From Liolophura sinensis (Eukaryota; Mollusca; Polyplacophora; Chitonida; Chitonidae), in NCBI RefSeq assembly GCF_032854445.1, contig NC_088303.1, forward strand, positions 5,897,501 through 5,961,500: 64,000 bases of DNA. Reading direction: 5' to 3'. Positions 16,295-39,300 of the stretch are shown here, piece after piece (position 1 is the first letter of the stretch; each line of letters starts with the position of its first letter). The notes under the pieces were generated by a model, which was not told where the DNA came from, searched no databases, and saw only the letters and a list, made by a program, of their open reading frames with translations. Made by a program: the position numbers and the translations under genes.

Positions 16295-19200
16295 TCACTT
16301 CAAAAAACCCATGGTGTGTTTCTTGCTGCCTAGTTTCTCTTCGTCTTTCAAAACTTCCAATAATCTCTTGTTTAATGCCTGTCCAACCCGCTTTCCAGAC
16401 TGTGAACATATAAAAGTGATAAAAGGTACAAAGGGTTTATAAAGAGAATGGAAACTCATACCAGCGTTTTGTGTTAAATGTGTGTCACAACTTAAAATTC
16501 CAAACAAAATAAAATTGATGACAGAATTGGTTTGGTGTGTTGTTTACCTTCACTTCAAAGTTAATAAGGTCTGAGGTTATAGTACGTAAACTTTTTGACT
16601 ACAGTCGTTAATAACACTTCACATGCGTGGAAAAGTGTACATGCAACATCATAAGAAAAGTTAGAAAAAGTGGTTTATAAAGTTCTGTGAAAGTAGAAGT
16701 AATATCCTACATATACCTCCATCATATCCAAGACACTATCAGGGTGTAGGCTTCCTGATCCTTCCTTCTTTAGGGCTGTCACTGTACCTTTGTCTGTTAT
16801 TCCCATTATAACTCTGCAAAAGAAGTCATGACAGTTTCTTTCAATGTTAACATGTTAATTTACCCTTTGATTATGATTACTAAAAGTATGGTTTTAAGGA
16901 AAATGAAGAAAAATATGCCCCCAAAAAGTAGGGGGAAAATTCATTTCATTTTGAGGCATTTTTTATATTTCTAAACAACCCCTCTATTTTATGCATATTT
17001 TCCATCAATGATCGGAAATGACGTCATCAAGGAAGATACGGGGAATGAGGGATCAGCTTAATTAACACCCCCGATTCAAGCTCCGTTAACTACAAAGCTG
17101 TTTTGACTATCACCAATGACATAACGACGGCAGACTACTTACTTTCCAGACTGATGGCTGGGGATTTATGAAAACTGTAGTTTAAACCCATTTTATGCCC
17201 CAAGGAGTAAGCTGAGAAGCTTTATTGCACTTTCATATCTTAGGACACATCATATACCATGTATTAAGAGAATAAAACCCAAGCTTTTCATAAAACCTTT
17301 AATACATGTATACAAAAGTAGTCTGGTCCATGAGTGGAGACTTGAGCAATAGCCTATGATTTACTGGTCACTGGGTCTGTGTGCCTCTATAGTAACGGCA
17401 CTTTAGATTACTTGGAAAGAGATCAGTTACTCATATTTAGGCACAACAACTCATTTACCACCTACAGGTATATCAGGGAGGAGACATAATTTTTAGCACC
17501 AGACTGAATCAGCTGTCGTAAAGCCGGGCGTATATTGACCTTGTGTTTGGCAGCAACTGGGTTTTTGGCAACTGGAAGCAGCGAGCACCATACAACCGGA
17601 TGCTGGTTTGACCTGATCTACGTGGGCTTGCGGTCACTGACAACTGCTGACTCCGTGGCTGCTCGGAGTTGAACATGTTCTACTTTTCTGTAACTCAAAG
17701 CATGCATTTGTACCCAGTTCAATCAATCTACGCGTGCTTGCGTCCATGGTCACGGTTGCTCCCAGTGCATGCATGAGTTCCACTATGAATAATGGCGACC
17801 ACTGAGTGGACCCATGAGGCGAAAAATAAGCTCATCCATTTGTGGAGGCAGCCCGTGCTTGTAGAACACCTCTTGCTAGGCACAGACAAAGCATATGATG
17901 CACATGGGTTGTGTAAGGAGGGAGAAGGCTATAATTAGAACAAATTATTAAATTTGTCTATCCTTTCATTAAATGGGGGTATCAAGTGAAAAGTAGGAAT
18001 AAAAGGACAAGGAAATTTTCCAACAATCTTAAATTTCAAAAGAAAAGACAAAGGTACATTAGACATTATATCAAATACATCCACGCATCATGTACAAGGG
18101 TCCCACCATCATGAATAGGTCACATGACTATCATGTTGCTATAAGTGTCTGCTCACAGTTGCCACCAGTCATAGTCTGAATCTGATCAGACACAGCCAGT
18201 GCTCATGATCATAAGGTTGAGTTGAGTTGTACCCAGCTGTTTATGATCGCAAGTCAACCTACGCCCTACTTAAATGAAATATTCTCGAGTACAGTGTAAG
18301 ACACCAATCAAATAAATAAATAAATAAAAGGCTAGAAATATGCAGAATCTAGGTAAGATTCCAAATCTCATTTCAAGACTTTTTTTTATATATTCTTGTG
18401 ACAGTGACTAAAATGAATCATAAGACTATGGCTCTGCTTTTAGGGCCATTGTGAAGCAGCTGAAGCACGTCGCCGATTCTTTCTAGCTTCTAAACATCCT
18501 CTCGTTGTTTTATATCTACGCTGAACATTAACATACATGTAGTACAACACCCGTATCTACAGCGTCTACACTGAACATGAATGTACATGTAGTACCACAC
18601 CTATATCTGCAGCTTCTACACTGAACATGAACATACATGTAGTACCACACCTGTATCTGCAGTTTCTACACTGAACATGAACGTACATGTAGTACAACAC
18701 CTATATCTGCAGCTTCTACACTGAACATGAATGTACATGTAGTACAACACCTATATCTGCAGTTTCTACACTGAACATGAACATACATGTAGTACCACAC
18801 CTATATCTGCAGTTTCTACACTGAACATGAATGTACATGCAGTACCACACCTATATCTGCAGTTTCTACACTGAACATGAACGTACATGTAGTACAACAC
18901 CTATATCTGCAGCTTCTACACTGAACATGAATGTACATGTAGTACAACACCTATATCTGCAGTTTCTACACTGAACATGAATGTACATGTAGTACCACAC
19001 CTATATCTGCAGCTTCTACAATGAACATGAACGTACATGTAGTACAACACCCGTATCTACAGCTTCTACACTGAAGATGAACATACATGTAGTACCACAC
19101 CTATATCTGCAGTTTCTACACTGAACATGAATGTACATGTAGTACAACACCCATATCTACAGCTTCTACACTGAACATGAACATACATGTAGTACAACAC

Positions 19201-22200
19201 CCGTATCTGCAGATTCTACACTGAACATGAATGTACATGTAGTACCACACCTATATCTGCAGCTTCTACACTGAACATGAACATACATGTAGTACCACAC
19301 CTATATCTGCAGTTTCTACACTGAACATGAATGTACATGTAGTACAACACCCGTATCTGCAGATTCTACACTGAACATGAATGTACATGTAGTACCACAC
19401 CTATATCTGCAGCTTCTACACTGAACATGAACATACATGTAGTACAACACCTATATCTGCAGTTTCTACACTGAACATGAATGTACATGTAGTAAAACAC
19501 CCATATCTACAGCTTCTACACTGAACATGAACGTCCTTGTAGTACAACACCTATATCTGCAGTTTCTACACTGAACATGAATGTACATGCAGTACCACAC
19601 CTATATCTGCAGTTTCTACACTGAACATGAATGTACATGTAGTACCACACCTATATCTGCAGTTTCTACACTGAACATGACTGTACATGTAATACCACAC
19701 CTATATCTGCAGTTTCTAGGATGAACAAGAATGTACATGTAGTACAACACCTATATCTACAGTTTCTACACTGAACATGAACGTACATGTAGTACCACAC
19801 CTGTATCTGCAGCTTCTACACTGAACATGAATGTACATGTAGTACCACACCTATATCTGCAGTTTCTAGGATGAACAAGAATGTACATGTAGTACAACAC
19901 CTATACCTATTTTCAGGGATACCCATATGCCTGGGGTAGCAACGGAATGCAAAGCCGCTTCATCTGCAGCAGTATTTCCAGGGATACCCATATGCCTGGG
20001 CACCCAGCAAAAGACAATGATAAAATCTTCATTAAGTTGTTTAATGCAGTTTCTAGGATGAACAAGAATGTACATATAGTACCACACCTATATCTGCAGT
20101 TTCTACACTGAACAAGAATGTACATGTGCTACCACACCTGTATCTGCAGATTCCACACTGAACGTGAATGTACATGTACTACCACACACTACACACATAA
20201 AATCTTCATTAAGTCTTTTAATGCAGTTTCTAGGATGAACAAGAATGTACATATAGTACAACACCTGTATCTGCAGTTTCTACACTGAACATGAATGTAC
20301 ATGTAGTACCACACCTATATCTGCAGTTTCTACACTAAACATGACTGTACATGTAGTACAACACCTGTATCTGCAGTTTCTACACTGAACATGAACGTCC
20401 ATGTAGTACAACACCTATATCTGCAGTTTCTAGGATGAACAAGAATGTACATGTAGTACCACACCTATATCTGCAGTTTCTACACTGAACATGAACGTAC
20501 ATGTAGTACAACACCTATATCTGCAGCTTCTACACTGAACATGAATGTACATGTAGTACCACACCTATATCTGCAGTTTCTACACTGAACATGAATGTAC
20601 ATGTAGTACAACACCTGTATCTGCAGTTTCTACACTGAACATGAACGTACATGTAGTACCACACCTATATCTGCAGTTTCTACACTGAACATGAACGTAC
20701 ATGTAGTACAACACCTATATCTGCAGTTTCTACACTGAACATGAATGTACATGTAGTACAACACCTATATCTGCAGTTTCTACACACTGAACAAGAACGT
20801 ACATGTAATACCGCACCTATATCTGCAGTTTCTAGGATGAACAAGAATGTACATGTAGTACAACACCTATATCTACAGTTTCTACACTGAACATGAACAT
20901 ACATGTAGTACCACACCTATATCTGCAGCTTCTACACTGAACATGAATGTACATGTAGTACCACACCTATATCTGCAGTTTCTAGGATGAACAAGAATGT
21001 ACATGTAGTACAACACCTATACCTATTTCCAGGGATACCCATATGCCTGGGGTAGCAACGGAATGCAAAGCCGCTTCATCTGCAGCAGTATTTCCAGGGA
21101 TACCCATATGCCTGGGCACCCAGCAAAAGAGTTGTTTAATGCAGTTTCTAGGATGAACAAGAATGTACATATAGTACCACACCTATATCTGCAGTTTCTA
21201 CACTGAACATGAACGTACATGTAGTACCACACCTATATCTGCAGTTTCTACACTGAACAGTACATGTGCTACCACACCTGTATCTGCAGATTCCACACTG
21301 AACGTGAATGTACATGTACTACCACACACTACACACATAAAATCTTCATTAAGTCGTTTAATGCAGTTTCTAGGATGAACAAGAATGTACATATAGTACA
21401 ACACCTGTATCTGCAGTTTCTACACTGAACATGAACGTACATGTAGTACCACACCTATATCTGCAGTTTCTACACTGAACATGAATGTACATGTAGTACC
21501 ACACCTATATCTGCAGTTTCTACACTGAACATGAACGTACATGTAGTACAACACCAGTATCTGCAGTTTCTAGGATGAACAAGAATGTACATGTAGTACA
21601 ACACCTATATTTGCAGTTTCTAAGCTGAACATGAATGTACATGTAGTACAACACCTATATCTGCAGTTTCTACACTGTACATGTAGTACAACACCTGTAT
21701 CTGCAGATTCCACACTGAACATGAATGTACATGTACTACCACACCCGTATCTGCAGTTTCTAGGATGGAACAAGAATGTACATGTAGTACAACACCTGTA
21801 TCTGCAGTTTCTACACTGAACATGAATGTACATGAGTACAACACCTATATCTGCAGTTTCTACACTGAACATGAATCTACGTGTAGTACAACACCTATAT
21901 CTGTTAACATGGAAATATAACAGCTATTTTTACATCCACCATAGATGTCTGTTTTTGCAACTGCAAAAAAAAAAGCACGAAAACCATTACTGGATCTGAA
22001 TGACATGACCTCTGTCTTGATTTTAAGGTGGTCCTCCTCCTTTTCTAGTGAATGTAGTGAACTGTCAAGTAACACATGCATACCACTGCATGCTACCTCC
22101 AACCAAAACATTGATTGCTGCTATCACAGTGAGAACTTTCTCAGTGCAGTGATGAACTCAAATTCAATCCTATGTACTTATTGATTCCATCACATACCTG

Positions 22201-25200
22201 GCCAGACAGCACGACTCTTCCTTCTGACTGGCATCTACCAAATGACAGTTCCCAATCTGAAGAAAGAAAATAAATATCAGTTAAACGTTCAACAAAACAT
22301 TTACTAATTCAAATGCATTTACAGCTGAATTTATAATGACAATGTTCTGAAGAATTTAGGGGTACAAAGTAGCAAACAAACCACCTGACTCTGCAGTCAA
22401 ATCAGCAAGAGCTGGATTTGAACCAAGATAATGGTTTATATAAACCACAGTCAGAACAAAGGTTTAGCAAATTTATCAACAAAATTACACACAAGGTTAA
22501 AACTTTACAGGTTTACTAGTTAATATCATCTTTGTAATTCATTCTTTGAAGAACTTCAACATGAGAACAAATTTAATTGTCCATTTAAATTCATTGAGCT
22601 TTGGGCGTGAGAAGATTTAAGTTTTTAACTTGATTACATGAATATGCATCACAGTTTATACTTTACGCCATGTCTTGAAGTTTGGCTATGCTTGTTTGCA
22701 ATACCTTGTGACCTCTGTTTAAAATATGAATGAAAGATTATGGTCTAACACCAATTTGCTCCGCATAAAATAGAACATACCTGCAACAACAATTGCATAA
22801 AAGTTAATCCACATACATATAGTATTCCAAAACTGAAATTTTGCATTGTATGTAACAAACATTTACTATGAATGTTTGTGTAAAGTAAACTTCAGATCAA
22901 TGTTGTCCTTTTTTATTAACCTACTTCTGCTCTATCTCAAGTTTACAAAGAGTGAAGCACATTATCTTCACATGTAACATCTGTGATTTGAAGGAAAAGG
23001 TCATGAGAAAATGAGAAAAAAACCCAATCAATCAGCAGCTAGTAAAGGCAAGCTTAAACATAGCTCTGAGGCGCTTTCCACAGCTGGTTGCTCCTAGCCA
23101 ATTAGGGATAACTTACTTGAGGCGAGATGATTGCACTGCATTTTGCAGGAGAACACTGGGCACCTTACCTTACTGTGTGTGATGAGGGCAAGGGAGGAGG
23201 CGACACTGGGCACCTTACCTTACTGTGTGTGATGAGGGCAAGGAAGGAGGCGACACTGGGCACCTTACCTTACTGTGTGTGATGAGGGCAAGGGAGGAGG
23301 CGACACTGGGCACCTTATCTTACTGTGTGTGATGAGGGCAAGGGAGGAGACGACACTCGGCACCTTACCTTACTGTGTGTGATGAGGGCAAGGGAGGAGA
23401 CGACACTCGGCACCCTACCTTACTGTGTGTGATGAGGGCAAGGGAGGAGGCGACACTGGGCACCTTACCTTACTGTGTGTGATGAGGGCAAGGGAGGAGA
23501 CGACACTGGGCACCTTACCTTACTGTGTGTGATGAGGGCAAGGGAGGAGACGACACTGGGCACCCTACCTTACTGTGTGTGATGAGGGCAAGGGAGGAGG
23601 CGATACTTGGCACCTTACCTTACTGTGTGTGATGAGGGCAAGGGAGGAGGCGCCACTGGGCACCTTACCTTACTGTGTGTGATGAGGGCAGGGGAGGAGA
23701 CGACACTGGGCACCTTACCTTACTGAATGTGATGAAAACAGGACAGAAGACAACACTGGACACCTTACCTTACTGAGTGTGATGAGAACAGAGAGGAGAC
23801 GACACTGGGCACCTTACCTTACTGAGTGTGATGAGAACAGGAGAGTAGACAACACTGGGCACCTTGCCTTACTGAGTGTGATGAGAACAGGACAGAAGAC
23901 AACACTGGACACCTTACTTTACTGAGTGTGATGAGAACAGGGGAGGAGATAACACTGGGCACCTTGCCTTACTGAGTGTGATGAGGACAGGGGAGGAGAC
24001 GACACTGGGCACCTTACCTTACTGAGTGTGGTGAGGACAGGGGAGGAGACAACACTGGACACCTTACCTTACTGAGTGTGATGAGAACAGGGGAGGAGAC
24101 AACATTCAGACGTTTGACATCGTATGGATCATCAGAGATCTCCAGCTCTGTGTGCCCTTCTTCCTCAGAAACAGTCACATTAGGGATTCTGAAAGTGATG
24201 TTTTTTGAATTACAAAAGAAAAGTGTTTTCATAATTTAAAAATACAGGAAAGGACAGCACAAAAATGAAGCTGGATCAGCAGATAGGCCATTCAAAACTG
24301 ACTCCAAAAATAAATGTGCTTATTTTCTTACACTTTCTTTTTTAACTGAATTAATGGAGGTCAAATATTCAAATGGTGGGCTTTATGGACCATACTGCCA
24401 GTGGTAAGTACACACACTCCTCAGTATTTCACATCACTGTATTTGCATTATATTCATCTACAGGTGAATTCTGGAGAACATCAAAGTAATCTTTTATTCA
24501 TGGGTAATAACTATTCAAACATTAAAAGGTGTGTTTATAGACAAAACACTTCTGATTATTTATTTATTTATTTGTCTGGTGTTTTATGCCATACTCAAGA
24601 GTATTTCACTTATAAGACGGTGGCTAGCATTATGGTGGATGGAAACCGGGCAGAGCCGGGGGGAAACCCACGACCATCCGCAGGTTGCTAGCAGAAACAC
24701 TTCTGATGATGTGATAAACACCACCTATATGGTTCAAAAAGCCCACCATATAATTCAAAAATTTAATGCAAATTGCCAAAAAAAAAAACTGAAAAAAAAA
24801 ACAATGATATATTTTTACACATTGTTTAGTCCATCTGATGAGCTTAATTTGATTTTTTAGCTTTCCTTCTCTTTAAATGATGGAGTATGCGGTATCCTTT
24901 ACTTACTTAGTGTTATATAAGGCAGCTTTTACGGCTATTGAAACTGCGTCAAAGAGATTCCCACCACATTCCAGTAACTATCACAAACAGAAACACAAAA
25001 CATGTACAGTAACAATCTTAAGCCCCGTCCAGACTATCTAATATCCTTCAACTTTTGTCCACTCATCAGCAAGTTCAATGCTGTTGAGGTAAGTTGGGTG
25101 TCCTATCTATACTACAAATCAAATAGGTCAACACTGTCCAACACTGGTGTTGTATGTTGATCAATGTCGAGCTGTGTTCCAAACTTTCGATAAATTGGAG

Positions 25201-28200
25201 GGAAATTTCCACCTTTCTCTCCAATGCACAATGAGAGACACAATGACCTTCACCTGGAAGAATTGTGTCATGGGTTTATCGTTTGTGCTTATTACCATAG
25301 CCATACTCCTGTATCAATGAAACTGTCTCCTCTCTCTTTCACCTTTGGCACTGCCATTTTGCCCAGGTCAATTGCCTTAAGACGGTCACGTTATTTCTAC
25401 ATGCCCGCTGATTGGCTACATTCACTCAACCTGACTCAACTTGTTGACAACAAATACACATGCACATTTCCAATTTAACAAAGTTGGATGGTGTTTAATG
25501 TTGTTTAACAGAGTTGAAGAACCTGTCCAAACTACTGAACATGGCTCAACTTGTTCACTCAACTTCAACTTGTCTCTTGTTGGGTCACCAAAAGTTGAGT
25601 GATGTTGGGTTGTCTAGACGTGGTTTAAACTAACAATAATCAATCTACAACAGCAATGGATATGTGATACTACTTGTGATAAGTGTAGTTCAAAACAAAT
25701 ATACATTGCAATGGCAATACATATTTATTTATTTATCTATTTGACTGTTGTTTAACCCCATACTCTAGAATTTTTCTAGAGTAAAAACTTTCATGACGAC
25801 AGTCAGTTTTATGGGTTGGAGAAAATGCAGTGCCCGGGTAAACCACCACCCTTTGGCAAGTTACTACCAAACTTTTCCAATGTGTGACATACAGATACAT
25901 GTTGGAGGAAGGCAAGGCGTGGTCTTCAACAAACGTTAAACTATGCCAATGCCCACAAGAGTATTGTCAGCTTCTTATTGTCCACGTTGTCACCAAGGTC
26001 CCACAAGCAGTGAGATTGGGGAAATCTGAAAATTCCCTGTGTAAGGCTGGTTTGAACACACACCTTGTGTTCCTAGAGACTGAAAGTTAAGCACTAACCA
26101 TAAGACCAGCAATAGTCCGCTAATGTTCATAAATATACGAAGGTGACTTCTAATATATTAAATCAAGAATCAAGTCTTTGGGTACATGATGAACAGGTTT
26201 CATACTTCCATCATAAGAATGACATGAATTTACTCACGACAAAAGATTTTTAACACTCAGATGTAATAGTTGCATGGCATACCACGATATCCACGTACAG
26301 GACCCAACACTGCTGCCCTGGAATAATTACTAAAGAGTTCAGGTCTAAGCTTGTGGCTGTGTCATATGCTCGTGCTAGCGTGTTGCTGATTTCTGTGGCT
26401 AATTCTTCCCCACCTCGGCCTTCAAACTCGGGAGTGGCGTTTGCTGAGCTATTAAAATAAAGGATATTCATTTATATCAGAATCAGGCACTGCAGAGGGA
26501 GCCTTTGTAGCGCGGTCATCAGCGTGCTAGTGCAGCACAATGACTCAGAACCTGGTCACCAATGCAGTTGCTGTGAGCTCAAGTCCACCTCATGACCTAA
26601 CCATCGCAGAGCAAAGTGCTTTAACCACTTGATCTTGACCCAATACCACACTAAAGTGATAATGACTACTTAAAGAAATAAATAAATTATGATATATTGA
26701 ATTTTTGGGAAAGTGTGAAGTACGAAGTAGTTTGAACATAAAGACTTTCCACAAATTTGGAAAGTCTTCCACATGCCACATTTAAATGTGTAATCAATTT
26801 TCATTTAGAAGCCTGGGGCCTCCGTGGGTCAGTATGTTAGCGCACAACCCGGGAGCCTCTCACCAATGCGGTCACTGTGAGTTCAAGTCCAGGTCACGCT
26901 GGCTTCCTCTCCAGCCATATGTGGGAAGGTTTGTCCGCAATCTGCAGTTAGCCATGGGTTTCCAGCGGGCAGTGTCCGGTTTCCACCCACCATAATGCTG
27001 GTTGCCGTTGTATAAGTGAAATATTCTTGAGTACAGCGTAAAACACCAATCAGATAAATAAATACATTTATTAAGAAGCCAGTCTGTGTGATTATAACAC
27101 AGCTTTCCACTGGCATGAAATTCTTCGGATGGATTTCACCAGTCCATCAGTGGGATTTAAAATTACATGAACTTTATCTGGTTTGGTCTCACTTCTCACC
27201 AGTCCACAAAGAATTCCAGTCGGCCCTGATTAGGCCTATCAGCAGTGGGCTGACCCATGTCAGCTTTTACCCCCACCAAAATGTCTGTGTTAGCCTGGAG
27301 AGGAAAAATCGACAGTAGAATACATCACAGAAATCACCACTCCAGCAGCCTGCCTTACAAAATTGTCACAACACAACGTCAAGCTCATTTAACCAGAGAT
27401 CAATTTCTTCATTCTATGCTACTTCAGCGGTATGTTGTACTGCTCCAAAGACGTGCCCCAAGAGAGTGAGATTTGTGATTCAGGTATTTTCTCACAAAAT
27501 AAAGTAAAAGTTGCAGACTGGACAGCAACACTACACTAGTCAAAAGCTAGATGGAAGCTATTTATTGCACTTTTGTGTCTAGAGTTACCTCCCTTTGACA
27601 GTGTTTTCAGTGGTCTGGTTTACTCGGCATGATCTGACAAATTAAGATTTGAAATGATTTTCTGTGAGCAAAGAACAGATGTTTGGTTTCAGGAATATGA
27701 ATTGTTTTTCTTTTTTGGAAGAATAATGCAAATAATGTCATATTTACAGATAACTATATTTGTCGTATAACTTAGTCATATTAAAATTTGGCATAGTTTT
27801 TCCAGTACAGCTGCATGCACATAACTGCTCCTTGCACTATCAGAATTTTTCTATATGTTTTGTCAGTTTCTTGGTTTCATGTGATTTAAAGTCACTATTT
27901 CATCATACCTTAACAATGTCTATCAGCAACAGTAGGAGACAATCTGAATGCCTAGAAATGTTTAGGGCTATATCACTGTACTGAGGACTGAGCGGACCCT
28001 CCAGTGTACTTGAGGGGACCCACCAGTGTACCTGAGGGCACCCAACAAATTACCTGAGGGCACCCTCCAATGTACCTGAGGAGACCCATCAATCAACCTG
28101 AGGACACTCGTCAGTCAACCTGAGGAAACCCGTCAGTTTAGCTCAGGTTACTCACCAGGCTACCTGAGGGGTTCCATCAGTCAGCCGGAGGACACCCGTC

Positions 28201-29936
28201 AGTCAAGCTGAGGAAACCCGTCAGTCTAGCTCAGGGTACCCACCAGCCTACCTGAGGACACCCATCAGTTTAGCTCAGGGTACCCACCAGCCTACCTGAG
28301 GACACCCATTAGTTTAGCTCAGGGTACCCACCAGCCTACCTGAGGGGTTCCATCAGTCAACCAGAGGACACCCATCAGTCAACCTGAGGAAACCCGTCAG
28401 TTTAGCTCAGGGTACCCACCAGGCTACTTGAGGGGTTCCATCAGGCAACCTGAGGACAACCGTCAGTCTAGCTCAGGGTACCCACCAGCCTACCTGAGGA
28501 CACCCATCAGGAAACCTGAGGACACCCGCCAGTCTGGCTCAGGGTACCCACCAGCCTACCTGAGGACACCCACCAGGCTACCTGAGGACACCCATCAGTC
28601 TAGCTCAGGGTACCCACCAGCCTACCTGAGGACACCCACCAGCCTACCTGAGGACACCCACCAGGCTACCTGAGGGCACCCATCAGTTTAGCTCAGGGTA
28701 CCCATCAGGCTACTTGAGGGGTTCCATTTGTCAACCGGAGGACACCCATCAGGCAACCTGAGGACAACCACCAGCCTACCTGAGGCGTCCCATCAGTCTA
28801 GCTCAGGGTACCCACCAGCCTACCTGATGACAACCACCAGGCTACCTGAGTTGTCCCATCAGTCTACCTGAGGGTACCCTCCAGTCTACCTGATGACACC
28901 CACCAGTCTACCGGTGGATATCCATTTGACCACCTAAGGACACCTACCAATCTACCTCAGATTACCCACCAGTTTGTCTGATCCACCAGGCTACCTGAGG
29001 TGACCAATCAGGCTACCTGAATAGACCCACCAGTCTACCTTAGGAGACTCACCAGCCTAAGCCTGGCTGATCCACTGGTGTTGGACACCATGTCTGTCTC
29101 TAATTCCATGTGACGGTAGTCTTCACATCCTCTCCCATCCTCTCTTACATTATCCTGAAAAATAAGACTGAATACTACAAGTAATTTGCATGTACTTAGA
29201 GTATACAAGCAACTGTTATATCATGAAGAATGTCTGTTGGAATATTCTTGACATTATATTTCCATACTTATTTGTGAGTTTTATGTTCACCTGGAAGGTC
29301 ACCATTTAGGAAAATATTTACCAAACTTTAAAATGTTGTTGCTCCCTGCTAAAATGATTGATAGCAATAGGTCTATATTATATTTCATATCTAGTAGGTG
29401 TGACTGTTCTGTACTGTACATCTATGAATGCAAAAATCCTCACCAATTAAAAAGATATTGTTATCGGTGCAACTCCTAAAGTGCTCTATTGATAAACAAA
29501 AAAAATAAATCAATTCTGACTGAATCGCAAATCAAATTTACTTTTAGTTTTGCAGGTGAATTTCCGAGGAAGCAATGCTAGCAGTTGTAAAGACAAGGCT
29601 GATCCATTTGTTAATCGATGAGATCTTTCTTGTTCAAACACTGAAATTCCCATAGACTCTCTAAAGAACCTAATCAAGAATGTATAAAAGCATTAATGGT
29701 AAACAAAATTGAACGTGACGGTCTGTTGTAATTCAGGAGTAATCTCCCTTTACTCTTGTCTTCCCAACTAAAACCTGATTTTTCCACCGAAACGACTTGC
29801 CGTTTCATTAAATACCCTGATCGGAGGACTTGTGAGCTACATGACCCAATGGACGGAACACTTGACAGAACGATCTTACCTGAACTCCATGAACAATAAA
29901 GGTTTTCTCCGCATCGCTCAACAAAACATCTGCCAT
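16295..29936 (-). CDS. EXOSC7: Exosome complex component RRP42 / EXOSC7 (nine coding exons)
   Basis: RNase PH-fold subunit of the hexameric ring of the RNA exosome, which threads RNA to the 3'-5' nucleases in nucleus and cytoplasm; animal EXOSC7 is itself thought to be non-catalytic. Exons, 5' to 3' on the - strand: 29936-29880, 29154-29053, 27294-27200, 26448-26283, 24977-24907, 24188-24068, 22256-22198, 16813-16717 and 16399-16295. All junctions are GT-AG and keep frame, giving 290 aa, one less than human. Landmarks: start MADVLLSDAEK; DGRGCEDYR at 25-33; SGSARLRL at 46-53; ATPEFEGRGG at 89-98; CWVLYVDIV at 132-140; LLECGGNLFDAVSIAVKAAL at 141-160; SDDPYD at 182-187; end KHTMGFLK. A likely polyadenylation signal (TTTATT on +) is at 15910. 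Two introns hold arrays that start at the splice donor (see separate entries). It is divergent from the palmitoyltransferase gene. Confidence 0.97.
17520..17936 (+). mobile_element. Possible transposon remnant with a short MADF/Myb-like coding start
   Basis: From an ATG at about 17793 there are about 48 codons beginning MATTEWTHEAKNKLIHLWRQ before a TAG at about 17934. The WTHEAKNKLIHLW pattern resembles the first helix of MADF/Myb-SANT-like domains, which occur in PIF/Harbinger-type transposons. The upstream GC-richer stretch (17520-17770) has repeated words such as TCTACGNGNGCTTGCG. No clear ends were found. It is in EXOSC7 intron 7. Confidence 0.3.
18222..18329 (+). mobile_element. SINE family 1, 3' tail fragment
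   Basis: The 3' end is well preserved: TTAAATGAAATATTCTCGAGTACAGTGTAAGACACCAATC followed by (AAAT)n. The upstream part is unrecognisable. EXOSC7 intron 7. Confidence 0.65.
19908..20052 (-). mobile_element. Retrotransposon RNase H fragment inside the satellite (copy 1)
   Basis: The - strand encodes FCWVPRHMGIPGNTAADEAA, the conserved end of the RNase H domain found in non-LTR retrotransposons (pattern W-P-x-H-x-G-I-x-G-N-x-x-A-D). Only about 145 bp is present and both sides are satellite, so the fragment was trapped in the array. A second block AGGGATACCCATATGCCTGG occurs twice within it, showing internal duplication. Confidence 0.7.
21017..21145 (-). mobile_element. Retrotransposon RNase H fragment inside the satellite (copy 2)
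   Basis: Same sequence as 19908-20052, about 1116 bp away, encoding CWVPRHMGIPGNTAADEAAL on the - strand, but lacking the ACAATGATAAAATCTTCATT stretch present in copy 1. It is flanked by the same satellite variants, so it arose by duplication of a ~1.1-kb piece of the array and not by a second insertion. Confidence 0.7.
21906..23149. other. Unique intronic sequence around EXOSC7 exon 7
   Basis: Apart from the 59-base exon 7 (22198-22256), this is unremarkable AT-rich intron with no array or recognisable transposon. Confidence 0.5.
23150..24115 (-). repeat. 50-bp minisatellite built from the end of EXOSC7 exon 6 and its splice donor
   Basis: About 19 head-to-tail units including the true exon end. 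On the - strand each unit reads GTCTCCTCCCCTGTTCTCAT, CACACTCAGTAAG (exon-derived, about 33 nt) and GTAAGGTGTCCAGTGTT (intron-derived, about 17 nt). The first unit overlaps the real exon 6 end (VVSSPVLITLSK, donor GT at 24067-24066); the rest lie downstream in intron 6. Most copies keep an intact AG|GTAAGG; variants include AG|GTAGGG, two copies with AG|GCAAGG, and one destroyed (AG|ATAAGG, near 23318). Units nearest the exon match it best (CACTCAG), distal ones carry CACACAG, so the array grew outward and homogenised in two blocks. Reading into the intron meets a stop after 17 codons. Confidence 0.93.
24556..24696 (-). mobile_element. SINE family 1, 5'-truncated copy
   Basis: Tail TTATTTATTTATTTATTTG, then TCTGGTGTTTTATGCCATACTCAAGAGTATTTCACTTATAAGAC, AGCATTATGGTGGATGGAAACCGGGCAGAGCC and ACCATCCGCAGGTTGCTAGCAG. 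It stops before the tRNA head. EXOSC7 intron 5. Confidence 0.85.
25021..25624. mobile_element. PIF/Harbinger-like non-autonomous element (MITE)
   Basis: The left end AGCCCCGTCCAGACTATC and the reverse complement of the right end (ACCACGTCTAGACAACCC) are related, and the similarity continues inward to TTCAACTTTTG / CTCAACTTTTG, about 40 bp in all. A TTA occurs at both flanks (25018-25020 and 25625-25627), the 3-bp TWA target duplication typical of PIF/Harbinger elements. There is no transposase. It lies in EXOSC7 intron 4. Confidence 0.65.
25717..26105 (-). mobile_element. SINE family 3 copy
   Basis: Tail (TTATTTATTTATCTATTTG) at the left, then a body with CATGACGACAGTCAGTTTTATGGGTTGGA, GTGACATACAGATAC and GTCACCAAGGTCCCACAAGCAGTGAGATTGGGGAAA. 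The right end has, on the - strand, a B-box-like GTTCAAACC within a degenerate tRNA-like head. The same body occurs at 37766-38060. EXOSC7 intron 4. Confidence 0.6.
26505..26625 (+). mobile_element. SINE family 1, head fragment
   Basis: Contains TAGCGCGGTCATCAGCGTGCTAGTGCAGCACAATGACTCAG and the B-box-like GAGCTCAAGTCC. The body and tail are missing. Between EXOSC7 exons 3 and 4. Confidence 0.55.
26814..27073 (+). mobile_element. SINE family 1, full-length copy
   Basis: Starts GGGGCCTCCGTGGGTCAGTATG (A box partly mutated), B box GAGTTCAAGTCC at about 26879, body CCTCTCCAGCCATATGTGGGAAGG and TTTCCACCCACCATAATGCTGG, 3' end GAGTACAGCGTAAAACACCAATCAGATAAATAAATACA. AGAAGCC flanks both sides (26807-26813 and 27074-27080), a possible target duplication. 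It ends about 125 bases from EXOSC7 exon 3. Confidence 0.88.
28000..29060 (-). repeat. ~21-22 bp minisatellite abutting the EXOSC7 exon 2 donor
   Basis: Around 45 degenerate units; on the + strand the core is CTACCTGAGGACACCCACCAG, with a variant (TCTAGCTCAGGGTACCCACCAG) giving a ~43-bp dimeric pattern over much of the array. The first unit overlaps the exon end: the true donor on the + strand reads GACTCACCAGCCTAAG, matching GACACCCACCAGCCTAC. On the - strand each unit thus resembles CTG|GTGGGT and also contains CAGGTAGG. Confidence 0.85.
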
Positions 29937-30347: not shown

Positions 30348-33300
30348 ATGTAAGTAATAGTTTACTGATTCCAGTTCATGGATCTGTCTCAGCGTCCTTT
30401 TGTGTGGGCCGGTTTTCAGGTTTTGACGGTTGATTCCACGCTAGCCCTGAATGACTACGACACACTCATTTATATTTGTACTTCCTAATACCAAATCTCT
30501 GTTCTTGTGACCCCTTAATCACACTTCTTAAGGAGTTAAATTAAACATCGAGGCCTATTTTCAACAATTTTTGATAGTTGCCTGCCTCAACATCAGAAAT
30601 TGTTGAAAATTGACCTCATCGTTTAATTTAATTGAACTACTTCGTAAGTGACAGTCCCTTTGCATCCCATCTCAGGTCTGGGGATCCCTCTTTGCACCCT
30701 ATCTCAGGTCTGGGGATCCCTAGATTACTTTCTTACTAACGGCTCATCTCTTGGGACCCCTTATATTTAGTTCAAACCTGAAATGACTGAAGGCTAATGT
30801 GCTCTGACAACATTTAAACAAAATCAGTGGACTCATCAAAAAGATGAAGTTTAATTTCTTTAATAATCCCTATATGTTTGTTGTTGTTGTTAATGTTGGT
30901 GGGAATAGCATACTGGTTGTAGTGTGTATGTTTGGAATGTGCTGCAGTTACTTACTTCTACTGAAGACTATTTACACATAAAACAATCATTTATTTCTTG
31001 TCAGTCCTGTTCGAAATTAAAAAAAAATATTTTGTTCTTTGTTCAAAATCATTTTGTCCTTGTTTTGTTTTAGGGATGAAGTGGAGTCTGGCTATGGCAC
31101 GATGCACGAAACTGGTGCTGGTAAAATAATCGTGAAGTCAGCCAGACGGCCGGCTGAGGACACAGTAGTCATAGTGGACTGTACTCCATTCTGCAAACGG
31201 CTGGGCTTGATGTGGCCAGAGGGTCAGCAGTTATGGTTTGTTAAGGACATCTGCGGTGTGATCTGTGCTGTGTTTACCTGGATGTTAGTGGGCTACGCAG
31301 AGTTTGTGGTCCTGTTCGTCATGTTGATTCCTGGCACGTCAGCGGTCTACGCCACGGTCCACGGCCTACTCTTCACATTCCTGTCCACAATGGCCGTGTC
31401 TTCACACATGAGAACCATGCTCACTGACCCTGTAAGTTATGGTCCTGCCATTTGTGCATTCATTCTTAATGTGATGCACATTATATGACATTTGCCCAAA
31501 AAGAACCGATGATGCTTTGGTGCCTGGTACCTTTGCTGGCCGAATGCTTTAAAGTGGTAATTTAGAACTTGAACCCTTGACACATGGTGTAATCTAGCCC
31601 TTGATCAATGAGACAATGCTCTAATCCGTCCCTTGACCAATTCATGAGATTGTCTTTTAATGTAGTGCTGGACAAATAAGCTCCTAGCTCTTGAGTCAGT
31701 TGGGCCGTGTTTCAATCTAGTCCTTGACCAGTTACATGTAGGTCATGCTCCAGTCTAGCTCTTGACCAATGAGATGGTGTTTTAATCTAGCCCTTGTCCA
31801 ATGAAACTGTGTTTTAATCTAGCCCTCATGCAATGAATTTATATGTTAATTTAACCCTTGTACGATGAGACCATGTTCTAATTTAGCCCTTGATCCAATG
31901 GGACTGCGTTCTAATCTAGCCCTTATTCTGGAGTATGGCATAAAACACCAGTCAGATAAGTAAATAAATCCTTGACCAATGAGAGTGTGTTCTAATCTAG
32001 CCCTTGACCAATGAGATCATGTTCTAATCTATCCTTTGACCATTGAGATGGTCTCTAATCTAGCTCTTGACCAATGAGATCCTGTCACAGTCTAGCCCTT
32101 GACCAATGAATGACATGGTGTTTTAACCTAGCCCTGTTTTTTTTAACTTAGAAGGTGATGGCATTTCAAACTAGTACTTGACCAATGAGATCATGTTTTA
32201 AAATAGCCTGTGACCAATGAGATCATGTTCTCTTACATGTAGCTCTGTCTATCTTTCACTCATGAACGTGGCTGTTGTTACCCAGTCACAGGTGGAATGT
32301 TCTTGAGTACATCATGGATTATAAAAACAATTGCCGTAACTCACGAATAGATTTGCCAGATTGTTTACAGATTGTATCGTTTGATTCTCTGCGTGTAGTT
32401 GTGATTTTTGGCAACTAGGCACAGCTGGAGAGATATTGGGTGGCTGGGGTGGTGGGGTGTCAGGACAGAACCAATAAGCTTCACTAACTACATGTGTATC
32501 AGCTCCAGTTAAAGCTTCTACCTGCATTCTACCACCAAGCTGGATGTTTTATGTAAGGATTATTAGCCTGGTCATAGTCGTACATAAGCTTTTCTATCTG
32601 TACAGGTAGACCTAACATAAATTATATTTTCAATCAGTACTTAGTTGCTTGCAGGATGTGTTTCAAATTTCACGACATCCATGAATTAGAGTTTATTACC
32701 AAACGATAAATGGGCAAAGTCAAGGATAAATGAATACCCCGTCATCCATGCATATGCCACTGTCAGTCCATGCACATCGGGTGAGTTTACTCAATGTGGT
32801 GCAGGCCAGCAGCCAGGCTGGCACATAACAGTTACCGCCTGAAGTTGAGGTGATCACCCAGTCAAGACCTTCTTTTGTCACAGAGGTTGTGAAGCGACCA
32901 AGGTGACAAAACACAACCAAGACTGGGTGATCAGCTAACTTGGACACCGCAACTGACAGTAAGTGGCGGTAACTGACTTACACAGTGGTTTCGTTGTTTG
33001 ACAAGAGTCATTATGTTTCATGAAAAATCACCATTTTATTGACTAAAGTCGGACAAATTTTTCTAAATATTGAAATTCACCTTAATTAATACGTACGCGA
33101 TGCATGTGTTTAGGCATGTAAAACTAGGTATTTCCCTAGTATGTTAGCGATATTGGTGCAGTCTTACATGAAGTTCTTAAGACACATGGTGCCGTGTTAT
33201 CCATTACACATGGTGCTGTGTTATTTATTACAGACTACATAGGTTTAACACATACGTTTACTTCGTGTTATCGTTTATGTTCGCATAAACCAATTTAGTA

Positions 33301-36300
33301 AGTTTTTCGAACAGGTACCCAATAAGTTAACTTGAAAACTGTTGCCAATTTCTATGTTTATATAGCCTTCAATCACTTTTATCAGTAGAACTTGATCTAT
33401 TGAGGGACTATTGAGGGAGGAAAATGATATTTCTCAGCACGGCAGTCTCTCTGAACAAATACCACACCCCGCCAAAGAATTCTCAGCAATATTCTAAGTA
33501 CTGTTTTTAAACAAATATGTTTGTGCTGATACATGAAACAACTCATTTAGAAGCTTTAATAGATATTTTCTGATTATTGCAAATAAAAAATTCGCTTGAA
33601 AAAATAAATCCAGTAGCTCATCAATTTTAATCCGCCATACTGAAAATGGAAACATGTTTATCTTTAATTGTGTTAAAGAGTTGGGATAGAGGGCGTTTGG
33701 CTTGACGTGGTGTTGTTGTTGAAAAATGTCAGTACCGGGAAAAGATAGTATGATGATAGCCTCCATAGAAGGGTGTAACGTGTCCAGCTTTCTAGTGCTT
33801 ATACAAGTAGTATCAAACGAGGAATACTGAAGTGCTCAAATGGTAGAGAGCTGGACTATGGACTTAAAGATCCGATTTCAAATCCCGAAGAGTGAAGCAG
33901 CCAGTTTTAAATGGAATGTGCGAAATTATTACACGTACATCACTTAAACACCTGGTATACCTCACTTGAACACCTGGTATGCATCACTTGAACACCAGAT
34001 ATATGCCACTTGAACTTTCAGTACATCACTTGAACACCCGGAACAGGTCACTTGAACACCTGTGATCCGCTGGCAAACTGGTGGGTACGAAGGATGAGTG
34101 ACTCACATCAAACATTGGAGCCAGTGTGTAATGGGAATTACTACATGGCTGAAAACTGATCTTTCTCCCCTGTAATCTCTACCAGTAACTAACTGAGGTT
34201 TAGTATTTTATAGATCGTACCAAAAAAAAAAAAAAAGTGAAAAACGCACCAAATATTTGTCACTTTTGTTTCATACAGAACTTTTCCCTTGCTCGATGTA
34301 CAATGGGATGAGTTCAGTAGAACAGCCAGTTCAATTGGAGGCCCTGACCTGCTTATCATGATTGGGGTTTACATCCTTTCAATTCGTAGGACACATGAAG
34401 TGTAAGTTCAACACAGCCTTGTTCAGGGAATTTGTAGATTCCTCTGCTCCCCTCATCAGATTGCTCTGCTCCCCTCATCAGATTGCTCTGCTCCCCTCAT
34501 CCTCAGGATTATCTGTCTGCATGTCACATATGGGAAAGTGTGTCAATAACATAAACTTCCCAAAGTTTGTTGGTTTACTGGACTTTTCAGTTTCCTCCAC
34601 CCAAAAAAATGACTGTTATGATTGAAAAATATTTGAGTAGGACAGTAAAGAAAAGACAAATAATTATGCTTTTTATACTTCGTATGGGACACTTTTATCA
34701 ATGCATATACTGTTTCTGTGCTGTAGGGTGCCATACCACGTGGTAATGCCACCAAAGAAAACATAATGAAGCTGGGTCTAAAGGAGGGCCAGGTGATATT
34801 CAAATGTCCAAAATGTGTGAGCATCAAGCCAGAGAGGGCCCATCACTGCAGGTAAGATGAACCCAAATGAGGAATTTGCACATTTTGATTCTGAGAACTA
34901 TAGATCTATGATGCAAGCTGTTGAGACTTTAGTTTATTTAGTTTAGTTTAGTAAGCGTTTTGTATGACATGCACATGATCTCTGGTTGGGGTGCATTTTG
35001 GGAATTTGCATTCAGGTCAGTCATTTTCCATGTATTTGACTAATTTAAACGTGACTAACAACAAAATTTCAGTGTTATAGTTATTCTGTGCATTTATTGT
35101 AAAAAACATTATTGAATATTAATTATGGCTGTAGTTCATTAAATGTATATTAGAGTGACCCTAATTAGTGTGAAATGGTATGTATGTGTACACTGGTTGT
35201 TGTGTCCAAGGGAGGCTACTGTTATCTGGAACAAAAATGTATGGAGTTGTAAATAGTCTCCCTTGTACTAAGCTATTTAGTAATAGGCTACAGAAGATAT
35301 ACATTTACGTACATATCTTCATCAGGGCATGGTGAGGTGAATTTATTCACAGCAAGTGTTTTTATATAAACAGTCATAGCTGATAATTTGCTGCTCAGAT
35401 CACATCCATCAAGGAATCCAAAGGTTAAATAAAACAAATGGATGTGGTATGTCTGCTTGTCTGCTACTAGTGTTATGCCTTAAGAGATTTAGCACTACAG
35501 CTTACACTGAAACATACAGTGAAATATATTTCAGAAGGAGAAATGTGGTCTTACTGCGCAATTAAGATATGCAGTTAAGAGTGCTGTTTGAAGTAAAGGT
35601 TTAAAATGGATGAATTAAATTTCAAGGTTAGGTGATGTAGGTTAGGGGGACCTTGCTAGTTACTACCCTCACCTGAAGATGTACATATAGGTGCTTCCTT
35701 AGGGTCGGGGTCTGTTGAATTCTTCCCAGCTTGTAGCTCTCAGAAATTTAGATCTGTACTCTTCCATTTACTAACCAGCTCAGTGCTTTGTGAGTGTGCT
35801 GTCCTATATATCAAAGCTGTACACCTGTCTCCTGGAATCCTGAAGTAATTCTGACCTCATGTCATGTAGATTAATACTCCATCATTGATGTGCAGTGGGC
35901 TTGGTAATTTTCAGAAATAAGAAAACATCCTTTTTTGGACATTAGTATCCAAGGTACAGTATCTGTCAAGAGAGTTGTTTGAAATAGTCTTCTACATAAA
36001 AGCCATTTAAAAGCTTTGCTATCAAAGCTAATTTTAATATTGTGACATGTGCCTCAACTGTTGTTATGCCTGCAATGAAAGTGACACTTGAGCTAGCTGA
36101 TGTACATGTGTAAATCTGTTCCTTCCACCATAATGCTGACTGCTGTCATATGAGTGAAACATTGTTAAGAACGGCATAAGACATCAATGAAATAAATGGA
36201 TAAATCAGTGCCTTTCTCAGACGGGATCAATCAAGGCAGACAACACGTACACATATGATGCTAAGTTTTTTGGATACTCCATGTGATATGTGATGAAATG

Positions 36301-39300
36301 GAAATGAGATGCACTGCTTCTCTGGCCCTGGGATCACAGCATGATCTTAACTTAGATCAAATTTCAAATCACTATAATATTGTTATTTCCAATGTAACAA
36401 GGTCAAAATATGGCTTGCCAATGTAAATTATGGGTAATTTATTGTAAAACAAATTTCAACTAAAGTGAGGAACATACCAAATTTAATTTTGACTTATGTC
36501 TGGGATCATTTCTTGATCCTGGGACGTGGGTCTTTACACATTGATGGCAATAAGCAATTGACAGTAATCTCATGTGGTCTTGCGTGAAGTGTGAGGAGAC
36601 CACTTGCCTCCTTTATCTTGCGAACCATAGTTGCATGTATATAAGGACCAAACATTACATGTACATTACAAGTGTGGTTGCCTGCAATTGTGGACATGTT
36701 CGGACTGCCATTACCAAGCCCAGAATCTTTTCTTTTAAGTAGCCTTCATGCACACTGTATCAGGCTTGCAGGAAGGATGGTTTGAATTCAAATACGGTTG
36801 TAAATATTTAATATCTGCTCATATTTATCTCTTGTTTGTCTAGAGAATTTCATTATCTCATCCATCAAGTGCTGAGTGTGAAGAAATTCCCATCTTTCAG
36901 CATGGGAGAGCATATGCACTGGTCATGTCACACTGAGGGCAAGAGTTATTGAACTGCCAGTTGACAGGTTCATGAAATTTTTCTAGTGAACTGATTATTT
37001 TTTTTTCTTTTTATTGTTGTTACCAAAGTATTTTTCACTTATACAATGTTAGCAAGTATATTAAGAATGGAGGAAGCTGGAGTGCCCAGAGCAAACCACC
37101 TGTCAGTGGTACATCTACTGTAGTGTGGACAATTTTTCCATGTGAGACATGGAAGGCCCATGGTCTCTAGGAAGTAGAGGAATTTTGAAAATTCGCGGTC
37201 CAAGATTGGAATAGAACACGTCTCATGTGACCTAGTGGCTGAATGACAAGCACCTTAACAACTTGTTTTTAAGTGGAGGGTTTGAGGCCTGAATCAGGGC
37301 AGTGCACATATCATACCTTAACTTAAAGAAAAAGACAACAAATAGGTTAAGCATAGTTATTTCTGAAGAGTGGTGGACTTGAGTTTGAGTTTGTTCTGAC
37401 AAACTTGACAACTCTGTAAGTCAACTTTTAACCTGGAATTCTTATAAAGCTGCTATGTTAGGGAAATCGGGAATATGATATTGTGTCGTCCGTACCCCAG
37501 GCTCATACAGATAAAATGCGAAACAGGGATTGGGTGTCATCATTGGAAACAGGTGCATTCTCGGTCTATAGAAATACATGTAACTTCTTGATTGGTTAAA
37601 GTTGATAACATGGCGGTACGTTCAAGTTTTTAATGTGAACAATTTTGCTTACTTGTACTTTGAACTGCGATGTTTTGGTTAAACTGTGCAGTATTACAAA
37701 AGTAAAAAGGTTTGCTTTTTAATCCTTCTGTATTGATGCATATGTACATTTTGGTTTAGTGTTTTTTTTAGTTATTTGATTGTTTTAATGCCATACTTAG
37801 TAATTGTTCATTGTAATGTGATGGCAGTCAGTTTTATGATTGGATGGAACAATTGCCTGGTGTATAATACTGGCAAATTTTCCTACATGTGACATACAGA
37901 TATACACACCATATACAAGACAGGTGTTGTCACTGGATGGTAGACTGCTTGTCTGAATCACTTTACATACAAGGTTGACAGCTTTAATATTGTCACCAAG
38001 GCCCAACAAACAGGGACAGCGCAGGAATCATCAAGTTCTCTGTTACGGCCAGCATCAAAGCTAGTACAAAACAGTGCAGAACATAGTAGCAAAGTGATGA
38101 AAAAATGACAACAAAGAATAAGACAGGGTGAAGAATGATAGCTACTAGAATTCAGTTCGAATCACCAAGATGCATGTCACAAGAACCTGTGTTTTATTCA
38201 CAAAATAATCAAATGGTGAAGATGCATGTGATGTGATTGCAAAATGGAACTTTGCATTGTTTATCAAAACATACTGTATGTGCATGAAAAAGTGAACAAT
38301 ATTGCCAGTTGTTTATTCATGGAGACCTTCACTCAGTTTCACAGTTTTTTACTTGCCCTGTTGTAAGCCATCACTCATCTGAGTTAATCTAATATTTGTG
38401 TAATTTCGGATGAGTATTTTTATCATACAGAGCTTTGTGATGTCACTGTCACACATCAAGCTCATTTATACTTGCTACTTAAGATGAACAAGTTATTGAA
38501 ACCCTGTTTTTACAGAGTTAATTGTACATGTATGCTTACAGTTGTAACTAATTGTAACAATATTTTGTATTGTTGCACTTGTCTCATTTTAAGCTTGCAC
38601 TTACAAAGTATGGTAAGGTATTATGAGTGTGGGGGAAAAGTGGTGTTGATGTGTGGGTCAGTGTTTGGGTCAGTGGAGTAAGGTTTTATGTTTGGGTCGG
38701 CTAGTCTCACAGCTTTCACATCACCTTGATGGAAAACTTGATGGGGATGATGAACATAATTTGGACGTATACTCATTTTGATTATAAATTAGGCAGGTTT
38801 GCATTTTTATCATGTTTTGGACTTTTTGTTTTTTTTTATTCAACTCAGTACTATAGTAGGCCAGAGTAATGTTTTATGTTTGGGTCAGCTGATGTCAACA
38901 TACCTTCATCAAACTTAGGCTGCCATTTGAACTGAAGCCATTACCGGTGATTTGGTGGGTTTCTCATAATCCGTTTTAGATAACTATTAGGGTATTTTTA
39001 TTTATTTATTTGGTGTTTTACTTTATACTCACAGATTGAAGAGTATTTCACTTGCATGTACATGTATATGACAGCATGCAGCGTTATAGTGGAAGGTAAC
39101 CAGGTGAACCCTGGGAAAATCCACGACCATCCGCAGGCTCCTGGCAGACCTTACCAAGTTCGACTGGAGAAGACAGTATGAGCTGGACTTTTTTGCTATA
39201 AAATTTCTGTTTTAGGCTTAGAATGGTTAGCCACTGCTTGTAATTTCAGGTCAGTGATCTGCAGTGTATGCAGTTTTACTTTCACAGCATGCAGTCTGAG

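Follow-up and report, generated by a model that had tools for sequence, protein, structure and literature searches.

A minisatellite spanning the exon 6 splice junction of EXOSC7 in a chiton, probably tolerated and of the 'mirage' kind described in amphioxus

The window considered here, a stretch of 64,000 nucleotides from the genome of the chiton Liolophura sinensis, carries on its minus strand the gene EXOSC7, also known as RRP42. The first 256 amino acids of the product match PDB chains 6d6q_E, 6h25_E and 2nn6_E with E values of about 5e-108, and once the nine exons are joined the open frame runs unbroken over 290 residues (Table 1). The frame also sets the authentic exon 6 junction, which falls at LSK|IGN (...ITLSK to IGNCH) with 24068 as the last exon base; up to LSK, the exon end aligns without insertion to human EXOSC7/RRP42, both in the PDB match and by tblastn. 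A Pfam search with the exon 6 peptide returned no match. The donor of intron 7 reads GTATGT. Head to head with EXOSC7, as in human, lies a ZDHHC3/7-like palmitoyltransferase gene; one of its exons gave no match against PDB and Pfam. In addition, the minus strand of the window contains an open frame with a DUF7869 domain that possibly comes from a transposable element.

Table 1. Features of the window, in window coordinates.
Feature	Position	Strand	Evidence
EXOSC7 CDS in 9 exons, encoding 290 aa	16295..29936	-	spliced frame and PDB RRP42 matches
EXOSC7 exon 2	29053..29154	-	tblastn, CDS
EXOSC7 exon 6, 121 nt, 3' end = VVSSPVLITLSK	24068..24188	-	tblastn, PDB match, frame, CDS
EXOSC7 intron 6, 1811 nt; 50-bp array occupies its exon-side half	22257..24067	-	CDS model
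EXOSC7 exon 7 (IGNCHLVDAS...); sets the phase of the authentic exon 6 donor	22198..22256	-	frame, CDS
Minisatellite of 19 units, 50 bp each; the first (unit 0) covers the end of exon 6 with its authentic donor, the others (units 1-18) are decoys	23153..24104	-	TRF, unit dissection
Second donor-spanning minisatellite, 22 bp, ~48 units, from exon 2 donor CTG|GTGAGT	27996..29059	-	TRF, sequence, unit analysis
Very large minisatellite, 50-bp units, EXOSC7 intron 7	18515..21903		TRF
Very large minisatellite, 28-bp units, long intron of ZDHHC-like gene	40105..45477		TRF
ZDHHC3/7-like palmitoyltransferase gene	31231..59808	+	tblastn with a human protein
Open frame with DUF7869 domain	3306..4124	-	Pfam, E 2.3e-9

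The first-pass annotation of this DNA had described an exon end and its 5' splice site amplified about 18 times directly behind EXOSC7 exon 6, and that description holds. TRF reports a period of 50, 19.1 copies and 92% matches, and dissection of the array yields 19 donor-bearing units in register on the minus strand, one authentic and 18 decoys. The same dissection bears out the division of the unit into 33 nt of exon and 17 nt of intron, the recognition of VVSSPVLITLSK as the exon end, and the placing of all decoys in transcript orientation downstream of the true donor. Most decoys had been said to keep the consensus, two to have changed to GC and one to be destroyed; the 18 junctions indeed comprise 12 AAG|GTAAGG, two AAG|GTAGGG, one AAA|GTAAGG, two GC and one AT, GT being present in 15/18.

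Predicted pairing with the 5' end of U1 places most decoys on a level with the authentic site. The authentic exon 6 donor scores -10.0 kcal/mol, a value exceeded among the six other authentic EXOSC7 donors scored (intron 7 excluded) only by that of intron 1, at -11.0 kcal/mol. Twelve decoys also reach -10.0 kcal/mol, two reach -9.7 and the other four lie between -4.8 and -5.3, so that 14 of the 18 are no more than 0.3 kcal/mol from the authentic duplex, and the choice of site is therefore not explicable by pairing strength alone. If a site counts as donor-like when its predicted U1 duplex is at least as stable as -8 kcal/mol, the array holds 15.3 such sites per kb on the sense strand versus 1.1 per kb on the antisense strand; on the sense strand, seven non-array stretches of EXOSC7 introns (intron 8 excluded) hold 0-2.8 per kb and the unrelated array of intron 7 holds 1.5 per kb. 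Use of any decoy had been expected to be non-productive, and a stop is predicted for all 18. Decoy 1 would add 50 nt, shift the frame and lead to a stop in exon 7, 69 nt past the authentic junction, while each of decoys 2-18 would meet, inside the array, a stop codon starting 51 nt past that junction; the claim of a stop within 17 codons is thus right for these 17 but not for decoy 1. The near-authentic pairing of 14 decoys, a sense-strand density far above that of the non-array introns scored and the predicted stops all speak in favor of functional decoys. According to such a model, U1 bound along the ladder would tune the splicing or retention of exon 6 or block premature polyadenylation, the number of units acting as a dial for EXOSC7.

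Each unit also contains a pyrimidine-rich tract followed by CAG, 4 nt ahead of the donor, in the manner of a 3' splice site. The pyrimidine fraction before this CAG is 0.74-0.79, versus 0.53-0.79 at the seven authentic EXOSC7 acceptors scored, a composition that would suit a recursive-splicing ladder in which the intron is removed stepwise through the units, the donor is re-created at AAG|GTAAGG and the mRNA is left unchanged. We nevertheless consider such a ladder very unlikely, as the intron measures merely 1.8 kb, splicing to the nearer CAG would retain TAAG and, with it, an in-frame stop, no branch point was identified, and the exon end is itself pyrimidine-rich. At the borders of the array, the exon-side edge TGTTGTCTCCT and the intron beyond the last unit TGTTCTCCT match imperfectly over 9 nt, with a gap of 2 nt.

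EXOSC7 has a second donor-spanning array, at exon 2. The junction CTG|GTGAGT sits within its first unit, CTG|GTGGGT or CTCAG|GTAG occurs in many units, and donor-like sites reach 27.4 per kb on the sense strand. The two very large minisatellites of the window, in EXOSC7 intron 7 and in the ZDHHC-like gene, lie away from splice sites, and inspection by eye of the arrays in the latter gene found none adjoining an exon end.

The 50-bp array occurs at three sites in the genome, all inside about 62 kb of contig C9, in tandem segments some 28-32 kb apart whose longest matches are mostly 94-98% identical (lower when minisatellites are included). Upstream of the intact gene lie two 5'-truncated EXOSC7 copies (C9:5847501-5897500), in which exons 3-9 are present, exon 9 of one of them matching over 88 of the 112 nt compared, and in which exons 1-2 had no match within the 50 kb fetched. 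One truncated copy has a stop in exon 4. On the other hand, only 6 and 9 positions in about 700 nt separate their exons 3-9 from those of the window copy, a lower divergence than in the introns, and both retain intact splice dinucleotides at exons 3-8; this low divergence and the intact dinucleotides count against simply calling the truncated copies dead. An RNase PH profile search found matches elsewhere in the genome and none at the EXOSC7 exons, and is therefore uninformative on further EXOSC7 copies. The similarity of the truncated copies to the window breaks off within the exon 2 minisatellite, which suggests that this minisatellite took part in the rearrangement; beyond the breakpoint they have common sequence without a long match in the window.

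The possibility that the array, or the triplicated locus, is an artefact of assembly draws on a HiFi coverage of just 14x (available text of PMC11068029), on the proneness of tandem repeats to error and on an apparent concatemer of mitochondrial DNA in the same assembly. It is nonetheless extremely improbable: the 0.95-kb array is far below the mean HiFi read of 8.3 kb, its units differ in sequence and order, the 94-98% identity that mostly holds between the copies over their longest matches compares with a heterozygosity of 1.24%, and the sequence that the truncated copies share past the breakpoint lacks any long counterpart in the window (read length and heterozygosity as given in the part of PMC11068029 available). 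As to the mitochondrial DNA, contig C99 (108,685 bp) matches COX1 seven times, about 15.5 kb apart and once over a shorter length, and for this reason looks like a concatemer.

The number of units is 19 in the intact copy and 27 and 41 in the truncated ones. Both truncated copies contain a repeated block of three units (units 1-3 and 4-6, with at most two differences per unit) that is absent from the window copy, and in the 41-unit array a block of 15 units is also repeated, with three differences in all. Since the array is common to the three copies, with different unit numbers and repeated blocks, the comparison of these paralogues within one assembly indicates that it is older than the duplication of the locus and that its unit number alters by blocks.

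The three copies also bear on the splice-efficiency dial that the first-pass annotation had offered. With a single consensus, and donor columns set against the remaining columns, mismatches amount to 6/162 versus 57/702 (p = 0.06) in the intact copy, and to 8/234 versus 76/1014 (p = 0.03) and 17/360 versus 170/1560 (p = 0.0002) in the truncated copies. The lower variation of the donor columns could reflect some constraint on the decoys and favors a function for them; however, these columns are equally quiet in the two truncated copies, and the column comparison of the three copies gave no sign of a donor constraint peculiar to the intact gene. Decoy integrity is likewise equal, GT being kept in 23/26 and 34/40 decoys of the truncated copies versus 15/18, unit number is not constant, and unrelated genes carry similar arrays. 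As the truncated copies have preserved their decoys just as well, a regulatory dial is unsupported, and functional decoys are unlikely.

The array had been presented as a single oddity, whereas it belongs to a class that recurs in the chiton genome and had already been named in amphioxus. A genome scan for three AGGTAAG motifs at gaps of 20-50 gave 1530 + 1556 matches, and the controls gave 926 + 526 (reversed motif), 1415 + 955 (unrelated GATGAAG) and 323 + 687 (its reverse); counted by eye among the matches listed, separate arrays numbered 8 in 2.94 Mb versus 7 in 4.15 Mb. A genome-wide enrichment of the donor motif was dropped, the control motifs also having given many arrays, and donor arrays stand at most modestly above the abundant minisatellite background. 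Among the eight donor-motif arrays fetched, one starts at an exon end of RPTOR (L015; 33 aa, E 5e-11), another (L014) is probably at the end of a short exon, and an exon sought by eye was not seen at the other six (L009, L010, L011, L012, L013, L016). A 52-bp array at L012:2472-2733, with the unit GTAAGAAC...CTCCCCTTTTATAG, looks like five copies of an entire short intron; no exon was seen upstream of it.

A rough frequency comes from sampled exons. The 41 short kinase exon matches, taken as the first of at most 300 nt in listing order, include three with donor-spanning and two with acceptor-spanning arrays, and one donor-spanning array was found at 40 RRM exon matches, these being drawn from the first 47 with an open frame of at most 110 aa after seven near-identical paralogues or retro-like members had been skipped by judgement beforehand. 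Pooled, junction-spanning arrays occur at 6/81 matches (four donors and two acceptors; 95% interval 2.8-15.4%). The 30 best kinase loci (L017-L046) have no array at the matched exon ends and were left out of this figure because their exons are long and mostly uninterrupted single ones; their inclusion gives 6/111. One further array (L081) looked donor-anchored but begins 16 nt inside the intron, and was excluded from the count. Twelve arrays (TRF score of at least 100, period of at least 15) lie near the sampled exons, and six of them cross the junction, reaching at most 60 nt into the exon, versus 1.7 expected at random (P = 0.004); the 60-nt limit was chosen once the arrays had been viewed, and the edges of the matches stand in for those of the exons. 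By predicted U1 pairing, the decoys are better than the authentic donor at L069 (-9.5 or -8.2 versus -5.7), equal to it or weaker at L060 and about equal at L084. At L050 and L051, arrays of decoy 3' splice sites lie directly upstream of kinase exons, and the authentic acceptor is the last copy. In EXOSC7 introns 2 and 6, in RPTOR and in the six sampled cases, the extra copies are intronic and one partial unit lies in the exon.

The first-pass account was right about the exon 6 array, but it omitted the exon 2 donor array, the acceptor-like tract of each unit, the two further copies of the locus and the arrays elsewhere. Among the options it had offered, simple tolerance is the better supported. 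The exon 6 array is very probably a splice-junction-spanning minisatellite of the amphioxus 'mirage' kind, tolerated as the exon-adjacent donor is the one used. A segment of about 50 bp, in which ~33 nt from the end of exon 6 are followed by ~17 nt from the start of the intron, was tandemly duplicated, as the sequence shows, and the first event was perhaps guided by the short and imperfect direct repeat noted above at either end. Unequal exchange or slippage, to which the block duplications and the unit numbers point, would then have multiplied and homogenized the extra copies on the intron side. Their persistence would follow from the splicing machinery taking the copy that adjoins the full exon, consistent with the intact frame and with the RT-PCR reports from amphioxus. 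Given that the exon 6 end aligns to human without insertion and that the 290-aa frame is intact, we infer that the first donor must yield the working mRNA. With the exon-adjacent copy in use, the decoys would remain part of the intron and be close to neutral, perhaps with non-productive splicing at a low level. A position rule by which the copy attached to the complete exon wins, as exon definition predicts, would cover both the donor and the acceptor cases.

Intron evolution in progress had also been proposed, by duplication of sequence containing AGGT. The units do hold paired 3'- and 5'-splice-like signals, and the link to intron gain by tandem duplication is sound insofar as boundary-spanning duplications are among the published routes (PMC4974935, PMC3087553, in the text available). 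The birth of an intron at this place is nevertheless scarcely credible, since all 18 extra copies lie inside an existing intron, protein homology places none of the decoy segments in an exon and the exon 6 end matches human EXOSC7 without insertion.

In a wider and more tentative reading, which we regard as possible rather than probable, minisatellites in this chiton arise or survive preferentially at splice junctions, ladders of competing donors or acceptors are present at thousands of exons, and the position rule is strong enough to make identical decoys nearly neutral. If this is true, each such gene would be a natural test of how position by itself governs the choice of splice site. A curiosity of a handful of amphioxus genes is extended to a distant phylum, with 6/81 as a first rough frequency. 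RNA-seq from L. japonica exists, with tissues that include foot, gill, gonad and heart (PMC11068029, available part), and data of this type could directly answer whether position or strength decides. Nineteen near-identical donors in series separate these two variables, whose roles in the choice of a 5' splice site are a long-standing question. For gene predictors and variant callers, many false splice sites are to be expected in such genomes.

Several known systems resemble the EXOSC7 arrays in part. Pseudo-5' splice sites and decoy exons, such as those of the P-element and of intron retention, bind U1 without being used and have tested regulatory roles. They share with the EXOSC7 decoys strong, putatively unused donor sequences near a real one, and differ from them in that tested role. 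Recursive splice sites have AG directly before GTAAG, behind a pyrimidine-rich tract. The EXOSC7 unit seems similar in its tract, AG and GTAAG, but the intron is short, the units are tandem and an earlier CAG lies 4 nt upstream. Intron gain by a duplication crossing an exon/intron boundary has been described in the accessible text of PMC4974935; an exon/intron boundary is crossed in EXOSC7 too, but a new intron was created in that case and an existing one is merely lengthened here. A formerly exonic segment turned into intron was not found, all decoys lying within intron 6 and the flanking exons matching human EXOSC7. Earthworm metallothionein has intron repeats, and the available part of that report (PMC12783039) mentions no unit containing a splice site. 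In a limited literature search, with most subscription journals outside it, boundary-spanning minisatellites were found for amphioxus only, with no report from a mollusc.

The closest likeness is to the amphioxus 'mirages' of Adh3, the globin genes BflGb6 and BflGb9, TnC and PGBD5, which are minisatellite-like tandem copies of exon/intron boundaries. As far as the accessible text goes, these affect donors or acceptors, repeat the AG/GT signals, are unstable in length, evolve in concert within a cluster and, by RT-PCR, leave regular splicing apparently undisturbed (PMC3087553, PMC3902484); the units measure 10-72 bp in Adh3 and 150-160 bp in BflGb6, whose haplotypes have 6 and 3 units. In EXOSC7, too, the repeat unit crosses an exon/intron boundary, at exon 6 and at exon 2; units are of minisatellite scale, 50 and 22 bp; splice signals are kept in many of them (GT in 15/18 decoys); and length is unstable, with 19, 27 and 41 units in the three paralogous copies. 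The intact frame is consistent with normal splicing. By contrast, the EXOSC7 arrays have 19-41 units versus the 6 and 3 given for BflGb6 in the text available, two arrays occur in one gene, a frequency has been measured in the chiton (6/81 sampled exon matches), and the host is a mollusc, with eight molluscan haemocyanin domains in a row in its genome, and not a cephalochordate, the taxon being the place of description and not part of the definition. Every sequence-level feature tested was found, and on these features the EXOSC7 arrays are of the 'mirage' kind: splice-junction arrays new at this locus, of a kind already known from amphioxus.
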